From assembly GCA_030604825.1 (NCBI GenBank), contig JAUVVB010000007.1, positions 1 to 64,000 on the forward strand: DNA of 64,000 nt, in the 5' to 3' direction. Under the pieces are notes generated by a model. The model was not told the origin of the DNA. It searched no databases and saw only the letters and a list, made by a program, of their open reading frames with translations. Position 1 is the first letter of the stretch; every line of letters starts with the position of its first letter. This DNA comes from Chloroflexota bacterium. Its GTDB lineage: Bacteria > Chloroflexota > Dehalococcoidia > E44-bin15. Of this stretch, positions 58,752 to 63,201 are shown one piece after another. The translations under genes were made by a program, and so were the position numbers.

Positions 58752-59180
58752 CTAAGCACCACCTGGGGGAGGCCTTTTCCTCCTCCGCTCAGCAACCTTA
58801 ATCCGAATCAACGCCCGACGCAGCGCTGCATCGGCACGAGCCATGTCGATATCAGCAGGACGAACCCTTAGCATCTCCTCGGCGCGGCGCTTTGCCGCCT
58901 CGGCCCTCTCAATGTCGATCTCCTCAGCCCTCTCCGCAGTATCGGCGAGGATGGTAACCCGGTTCTGCATCACCTCCAAAAAGCCGCCGCTGACGAAGAT
59001 GGAGGTCTCCTCCCCCTCCTTCCTCACCCTGAGCTCGCCCAGCTGAAGCATGGTTAACAGAGGGGCATGGTTGGGCAATATGGCCAGCTCCCCATCAATG
59101 CCGGGGGCGATGACCACATCCACATCATCGGAGTAGATGACCTGCTCCGCAGTGACCATCTCGAACCTGATCTTAGCCAT
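58752..59180 (-). CDS. atpC: F1 ATP synthase epsilon subunit
   Basis: IRFEMVTAEQVIYSDDVDVVIAPGIDGELAILPNHAPLLTML. Confidence 0.95.
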   Translation of the reverse strand: MAKIRFEMVTAEQVIYSDDVDVVIAPGIDGELAILPNHAPLLTMLQLGELRVRKEGEETSIFVSGGFLEVMQNRVTILADTAERAEEIDIERAEAAKRRAEEMLRVRPADIDMARADAALRRALIRIKVAERRRKRPPPGGA

Positions 59181-59202: not shown

Positions 59203-59670
59203 TTACATTTTATTCGGGGCCCGTGGCGCCTCACGCGATGCTTGGAAGCTCAAGGCTTCCGAGATCATTATGACCTTGAACCCGTATTTTTCGGGCAGGT
59301 TTAGTTCTTCGAGCTTGCGCCTAAGTTGATCGTGACCGGTCACTAAGATTGCTCCCTTCAGGTCCGCGGCGAGCTTGATTAGCGGACGGTAGTTCTCGTC
59401 GAGCTTACTCTCTTCGTCCGGATGTAACGTCTTCGCGTTCATTGAGGAGCGCATATCATACTTATCCTTGGTGTTGAAGATGTGATTGAGACTCTTCACG
59501 ACCTCCGCCGCTTTCAATTGATTGAGCAGCGACATGTATTCCCCGTATAAGTCTGCGGCTAGGACTATGCTGTCGCACTTGACCTTTATCTGATTCAACA
59601 AGTTTGCCCACATAGACGGCTGCGGGTCCCAATAGGGTAAACAGAGATCAGGCAAGAAGACGGCTTTCAT
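59203..59670 (-). CDS. hypothetical protein, PIN-like fold suspected
   Basis: N-terminal MKAVFLPDLCLPYW, C-terminal LKGAILVTGHDQLRRKLEEL...FKVIMISEAL resembling the last half of PIN domains; starts 4 nt inside the upstream ATPase gene. Confidence 0.6.
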   Translation of the reverse strand: MKAVFLPDLCLPYWDPQPSMWANLLNQIKVKCDSIVLAADLYGEYMSLLNQLKAAEVVKSLNHIFNTKDKYDMRSSMNAKTLHPDEESKLDENYRPLIKLAADLKGAILVTGHDQLRRKLEELNLPEKYGFKVIMISEALSFQASREAPRAPNKM

Positions 59671-60917
59671 TTGCCACCCCTTTGTGCCAACGCCTTGAGC
59701 CGCCTAGTCAGTTCTTCCATGTCTGCCTCGAAGAAACCCCTGAGCCCGCCTTCCAAAGCGCCTTTATCGTCGACCGGTAGCCGCGTGGCCCTAGCCGCGC
59801 CATCTTCCTCCTCGAAGTAATAGATGGCCAGCTCCTTTGGCTTCAGTTTCCCTTCTGCGACGCTAGTGAGCAGGCTCATGAGAATGTGCTCATTGTGACA
59901 GGTAAGTATGAGCTGCTTGTCCTTCTCTTTCACCACCTCCACTAGCACGTTACAGAATTCGGCGTGGGCCCGCGGGTGTAGATGGATCTCCGGCTCCTCT
60001 ATAGCGATCATCGAGCCTGGGGCAGCGCCCGACAATACGGCGAGGGGCCAGATCAGCTGCCTAGTGCCTGCTCCTTCGTTGGCGATGGGCAGCCGCCGCC
60101 TCTGGGCACTCGCTTGCACTATGATCGTTTCCGCAGCCATCTCACATCTTATTCGACGGCCTACTATTCGCTCAAGCCACTCGGACACATCGTCTTGGAG
60201 AACCCACTCATCGGCCAGGTAGTTTATCATCTCCTCCTGCGTGCATAACTCGTTAACTGGTACCCGCTTATCCAGACGCATGTACTCACTACTGGTCAAA
60301 ACGCGGACACGCTCAGCAGGAACTATGTGCACCTTAGAGACGGAGTCAACTATTTTGTGCCGTATCTCCTGCACTTTGTTATGGACCGCCTTATCCACGC
60401 CTTGAACCTTGAACTGGAAAGGCAGGCCGATTAGATAACTGCCATAAAAGGTTACCTTCGGCCGGCCGGGGAGCTCGATGCATTCTGGGTCAATCCTCCA
60501 ATGGCGCGGTTTCTCCGGCGTTGTGAAACTAAGGCTGTCCACGCCGGGCAAGCCGGAAAAGCGAATGCTCACCGCCTGCTCCTTCAGCCCCTCGCCAGCG
60601 AACTTCGCCGTGTAGTCTAGGGTACACTTCTTGGCATGAGAAAGCGGCTCCATCCGGGCCTCCACCGCCAGCTTAAGCCCCACCTCCAGTTCTGGCCCGC
60701 CTCCCCTCCGAAGCAGATCGTTAAAGCTGCCAGCCTGAAAGAAGCGCTCATTCAGTATGAGATTTGGCTGCTCCATTGACTGCTTTAGAAGCGCCAGAGC
60801 ATGTAGGACAGTGGACTTGCCAGCGCCATTAGGGCCTATAAACACTGTGATGAGCCCTGGCCTTAATTCAACCTCTTGGAAAGCCTTAAAATTCCTCAAT
60901 GAGATTTCTTGCCACAT
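59667..60917 (-). CDS. RecF/OLD-like AAA (ABC-type) ATPase
   Basis: [90 protein letters not shown] aggagg at atpD stop. Confidence 0.88.
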   Translation of the reverse strand: MWQEISLRNFKAFQEVELRPGLITVFIGPNGAGKSTVLHALALLKQSMEQPNLILNERFFQAGSFNDLLRRGGGPELEVGLKLAVEARMEPLSHAKKCTLDYTAKFAGEGLKEQAVSIRFSGLPGVDSLSFTTPEKPRHWRIDPECIELPGRPKVTFYGSYLIGLPFQFKVQGVDKAVHNKVQEIRHKIVDSVSKVHIVPAERVRVLTSSEYMRLDKRVPVNELCTQEEMINYLADEWVLQDDVSEWLERIVGRRIRCEMAAETIIVQASAQRRRLPIANEGAGTRQLIWPLAVLSGAAPGSMIAIEEPEIHLHPRAHAEFCNVLVEVVKEKDKQLILTCHNEHILMSLLTSVAEGKLKPKELAIYYFEEEDGAARATRLPVDDKGALEGGLRGFFEADMEELTRRLKALAQRGGK

Positions 60918-60934
60918 TGACATACCTCCTGTAC

Positions 60935-63201
<2,267 letters not shown>

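Follow-up and report, generated by a model that had tools for sequence, protein, structure and literature searches.

An ABC ATPase and a PIN-fold protein encoded between atpD and atpC in Chloroflexota, a candidate two-gene conflict module

The stretch of Chloroflexota DNA analyzed here (64,000 nucleotides, hereafter the window) comes from a 1.37-Mb assembly of 30 contigs, which its relatives place in Chloroflexota and probably in the class Dehalococcoidia. On its minus strand, the genes are read in the order atpA-atpG-atpD-ATPase-small ORF-atpC, as stated in the initial annotation, and Pfam confirms atpC (Table 1). With the small ORF beginning at 59670 and the ATPase gene ending at 59667, the two share the 4-nt overlap (ATGA) described before, and 22 nt separate the stop of the small ORF from atpC. 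The ATPase frame spans 60938-59667. Its first ATG (60938) does overlap the atpD stop (ATGA), as had been claimed, but the AGGAGG said to share this overlap lies past the stop. Translation yields 423 aa from ATG 60938 and 416 aa from ATG 60917; the latter is the likely start because the ribosome-binding site stands just ahead of it and because it fits the N-terminus of the relatives.

Table 1. Features of the insert between atpD and atpC and of its flanks, in window coordinates
Feature	Position	Strand	Basis
atpD, F1 beta subunit, flank upstream of the insert	60935..62329	-	464-aa ORF; atpD of family members 85-93% identical
AGGAGG ribosome-binding site, between the atpD stop (4 nt away) and ATG 60917 (7 nt away)	60925..60930	-	sequence
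ABC/OLD-like ATPase without TOPRIM domain	59667..60917	-	Pfam, PADLOC, motifs, fold matches
PIN-fold protein, 155 aa, start overlapping the ATPase stop by 4 nt	59203..59670	-	model, Foldseek, profile, residue columns
atpC, F1 epsilon subunit, flank downstream of the insert	58752..59180	-	Pfam ATP-synt_DE_N, 1e-29

The G+C content of the two inserted genes (55.2% and 50.5%) is lower than that of the neighboring atp genes (59-62%), as expected of acquired DNA. A scan of this region found no promoter or terminator above chance, and transcription of the pair is probably supplied by the atp operon. A chimeric contig is unlikely, because the same arrangement is present in several independent assemblies.

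The ATPase matches the Pfam families AAA_15 (7e-26) and AAA_21 (9e-20), and a 23-row alignment shows little or no variation in its Walker A motif, an EEPE-H-LHP stretch and the H-loop. Its best full-length match in a defense library is the PADLOC model NsnB (6e-46), followed by PDC-M55A. The predicted structure (pLDDT 80, pTM 0.83) matches the head folds of Rad50 and SMC and that of the PtuA protein found in Septu and retrons. Pfam, profile and fold matches thus agree with the earlier reading of a RecF/OLD-like ABC ATPase and describe the protein as OLD/RecF/PtuA-like. Pfam matched no TOPRIM domain in the 423-aa protein. The genome of the window also encodes a 570-aa OLD-type ATPase with a TOPRIM domain (L002:781-2493, G000:C7). 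No relative was found in viral contigs searched with the ATPase or in phage records searched with a sister ATPase.

For the small protein of the window alone, Pfam, NCBIfam, PADLOC and PHROGs returned nothing usable. Its AlphaFold2 model is confident (pLDDT 90.3, pTM 0.84), and the top Foldseek matches in the PDB are PIN domains, namely those of SMG6, Nmd4, VapC4 and minimal RNase P (best E 3.8e-3, probability 1.00). With a PIN profile from which all atp-borne sequences were left out, the ORF is found at E 5e-13, hhalign of the protein against a profile of its relatives gives a probability of 96.7%, and 4 of 21 members of this PIN family match Pfam PIN_3 (best 7.7e-6). Model, PDB matches and profile therefore all place the protein in the PIN-domain superfamily. 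The initial annotation had proposed a PIN-like C-terminal half; the fold is borne out, but in the model the whole length of the protein, and not one half, is a PIN domain. A PDB sequence search also returned HIV protease (best E 4e-4 over 40 residues), which we rejected as spurious because the confident model has a PIN fold and the relatives match PIN_3. Plasmids searched with the PIN sequence held no relative.

The active site of this PIN domain departs from that of its relatives. In the residue columns, the hallmark acid Asp8 is retained, Tyr94 takes the position of an Asp found in 20 of 20 relatives, and His113 that of an Asp or Glu found in the same 20; the other atp-borne PIN copies have their hallmark acids intact. 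With two hallmark acids lost (positions 94 and 113), the PIN of the window is probably dead, impaired or altered as a nuclease effector, and the earlier suggestion that this copy is a nuclease effector becomes doubtful. Asp114 adjoins the altered site 113, and the active site may have shifted via this residue. There is also the possibility that the module is a decaying remnant, dead as an effector in the window's genome and kept by chance. The loss of acids that all 20 relatives possess would be explained in this way, but neither frame is broken, the ATPase keeps its motifs, the start-stop overlap persists, and confidence in the PIN model is high; on balance we consider a remnant kept by chance unlikely.

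Relatives of the ATPase in genome contigs were gathered with an alignment query. The 20 that are near full length (L009-L027 and L035) come from Chloroflexota, Planctomycetota, Acidobacteriota, Thermoplasmata, Nitrososphaerales and Euryarchaeota. A PIN gene lies directly downstream in 18 of these 20, a count whose cases are not fully independent since L011 lies close to L018; the PIN gene of L014 was located by reading downstream frames, and none follows the ATPases of L016 and L035. The gaps between ATPase and PIN genes range from -17 to +24 nt. A search with PIN alone returned PIN genes that again adjoin such ATPases (L231, L216, L217 and L218). The conserved pairing, whose absence the initial annotation had named as a refutation, is thus found. 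Because relatives of both frames occur in the same order elsewhere and a profile free of the window's own sequence finds the small ORF, the pair is more than a chance arrangement. Its distribution is patchy, and elsewhere the pairs adjoin genes that include argS, proS, gyrA, pheT and aroKB and do not lie in recognizable defense islands. In Beggiatoa-like genomes (L028, L029 and L030), the genes of more distant ATPases overlap by 4 nt with that for a different protein of 331-346 aa, which had no Pfam match in the three genomes and is possibly an alternative effector. ATPases of the window's kind therefore seem to swap partners.

Septu consists of the PtuA ATPase and the PtuB HNH nuclease, and PtuAB is also associated with retrons. 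The pair resembles Septu in being a two-gene unit in which a Rad50/SMC-like ABC ATPase with a PtuA-like fold precedes a small nuclease-type protein. It differs in that the partner has a PIN fold whereas PtuB is HNH, and the ATPase sequence is weakly similar (34 bits with the NCBIfam retron Ec78 PtuA model, against a cut-off of 500 bits). With PIN in place of HNH, the pair would work like Septu, yet it is not Septu. OLD, Gabija GajA and PARIS AriA share the AAA_15/AAA_21 ATPase core, but the window's ATPase has no TOPRIM domain and is partnered by a PIN-fold protein; membership in OLD or Gabija was ruled out because the C-terminal TOPRIM domain is missing. VapC and other PIN ribonucleases have the PIN fold in common with the small protein. 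Unlike in VapBC, however, the partner is an ABC ATPase, and VapBC membership was ruled out because the PIN gene adjoins the ATPase gene and atpC with no VapB-like antitoxin. No PADLOC model matched the window's PIN, and those of its relatives gave at most weak matches. Two validated defense systems, DS-3 and DS-5, require PIN catalytic residues (PMC13092281); they too have a PIN fold, but the window's PIN is partnered by an ABC ATPase. The pair is absent as a pair from the defense catalogue searched and is a candidate two-gene system.

We read the atpD-to-atpC junction of 109 genomes from the class of the window and of L010 (110 in total); L010 was included via its ATPase and hence not blindly sampled. 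The median gap is 19 nt, and 20 of the 110 gaps are at least 200 nt. Five junctions hold the ATPase-PIN pair: those of the window, L136 (G027), L157 (G059), L163/L014 (G024), where two further genes precede the pair, and L010 (OY282565.1). The four other operons are all from Chloroflexota. At 5 of 110 junctions, the pair is not a housekeeping gene routinely found in atp operons, and we rejected this reading. A profile without any atp-borne member gave six clear PIN matches (E <1e-12) in 294 genomes of the class, of which four are at the atpD-atpC junction and the remaining two adjoin argS and aroKB. Under random placement among ~1,400 genes, as few as two of the six at a single site would already have a probability of ~8e-6, a figure that ignores shared ancestry.

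The same junction also holds other genes. Within the family of the window, the pair is absent from every other readable atpD-atpC junction. The two closest sister genomes of the window are G150 and G171. The first, of the same family, has a DprA-like gene with a phosphoribosyltransferase gene (L107:3070-4604) that match PADLOC PsyrA (9e-50) and PsyrT (5.5e-13) and are thus PsyrTA/ShosTA-like; the second has a single gene for a 168-aa DUF4760 protein (L108:2523-3029). In two families (L135 and L143), the junction encodes a 73-80-aa protein and a 126-134-aa HEPN/PaREP1 protein, and DUF4258-DUF2283 genes occupy it elsewhere. A protein of ~94-96 aa (PRPFxLHWGSGRIVEEAxYxG) follows atpD in several families (L140, L144, L174, L191, L192, L204 and L208); one member was searched against Pfam and had no match. 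The initial annotation had suggested that placement in the atp operon could be evolutionarily stable. The patchy occurrence of the pair and the other cargo carried by sister genomes contradict this, and the turnover of cargo counts against the position making the module stable.

As a control, the atpG-atpD and atpA-atpG junctions were found to be likewise invaded, with gaps up to 1.8 kb. Their cargo, named by reading the sequences and without family search, is often enzyme-like, e.g., HAD phosphatases and a universal stress protein. In the pair-bearing operon of G024 (L272), an apparent DNA methyltransferase gene and an enoyl-CoA hydratase-like gene occupy the atpA-atpG and atpG-atpD junctions, and in L010 two tandem genes for 124-aa aspartyl-protease-like proteins (DTGAGSSFV) lie between atpG and atpD (L010:1700-2577). 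The atp operon as a whole is permissive to inserts. Since other atp junctions are also invaded, occupancy of the atpD-atpC junction is not special, and we rejected this junction as the sole insertion hotspot. An insert in the atp operon is by itself no sign of defense either, because many other inserts look metabolic. It is about an even call whether the operon is simply a permissive landing pad and the pair ordinary horizontally acquired cargo unrelated to the site, a reading largely compatible with the one we favor below. That genes of several kinds (HAD phosphatase-like, universal stress protein-like, methyltransferase-like and others) often invade the two control junctions fits such a pad. 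Less easily accommodated are the presence of the ATPase-PIN pair at the atpD-atpC junction only, among the three atp junctions examined, and its being far commoner there than at any other single site in the class.

That preference could also reflect a tie to the ATP synthase, in which the pair acts as a regulator of atp mRNA or protects the enzyme, and its repeated arrival at this junction was selected for F1-matched expression or energy sensing. Five pairs at one junction and at no other of the three, four of the six clear PIN matches of the class, and the tight packing against atpD and atpC would be expected from such a tie. It is nevertheless very unlikely, given that no more than 5 of 110 operons carry the pair and the nearest kin lack it, that its relatives adjoin unrelated genes in other phyla, and that unrelated cargo lies at the atpD-atpC junction too.

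On a tree of atpD and atpG, the five pair bearers are scattered, requiring five changes, at least three of which are forced by well-supported branches. In the ATPase tree, L014 and L157 form one clade, and the window, L136 and L009 of Planctomycetota form another. A single clade of atp-borne ATPases is rejected by the AU test (p 0.018; 0.025 without long branches). The pair appears to have entered the atpD-atpC junction in at least three lineages and probably in five. Several ATPase branches are long, which weakens the test and makes repeated insertion at this junction likely rather than proven. A single ancestral insertion, with many subsequent losses and an occasional move to other loci, would suit the two groupings of the ATPase tree, but in view of the AU test and the scattered bearers we regard it as rather improbable.

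With somewhat better than even confidence, we favor as explanation a two-gene conflict module of horizontal origin, a Septu-like ATPase sensor with a PIN ribonuclease effector, that landed repeatedly in atp operons. By analogy with its relatives, the pair is most likely an anti-phage or toxin-type module. After horizontal acquisition, it would have inserted co-directionally into the ATP-synthase operon. The ATPase, of the Rad50/OLD/PtuA kind, would dimerize on ATP and sense an invader or a stress cue. On the model of Septu, OLD and RloC-like systems, the activated ATPase would license or release its PIN partner, which, if it acts as its ribonuclease relatives do, would cut RNA and arrest the cell. 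In the window, where two catalytic acids are gone from the PIN, the module has probably decayed or the PIN-fold protein acts as a non-cleaving partner.

This explanation as a whole is favored by the conservation of the pair, the PIN fold, the PtuA-like ATPase fold, the defense-profile matches and the patchy distribution. The four other pairs at the atpD-atpC junction, their scattered bearers and the AU rejection of one clade argue in the same direction, as do the lower G+C content, the PsyrTA/ShosTA-like pair at a sister junction and a region with no promoter above chance. Against it count the location of pairs outside recognizable defense islands, viral contigs and phage records without an ATPase relative, the window's PIN without two hallmark acids, and the metabolic look of many other atp inserts.

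Few gene clusters are as conserved as ATP-synthase operons, and the pair raises the question of whether transcription of the atp operon matters for an ATPase-PIN module. We think it highly improbable that such pairs were drawn to the atpD-atpC junction by cooperating with, or depending on, ATP-synthase expression or the energy state of the cell; if they were, the ATP-synthase operon would be a functional seat for a defense module as opposed to a chance landing site. The atp operon is a new place to seek defense genes outside defense islands.
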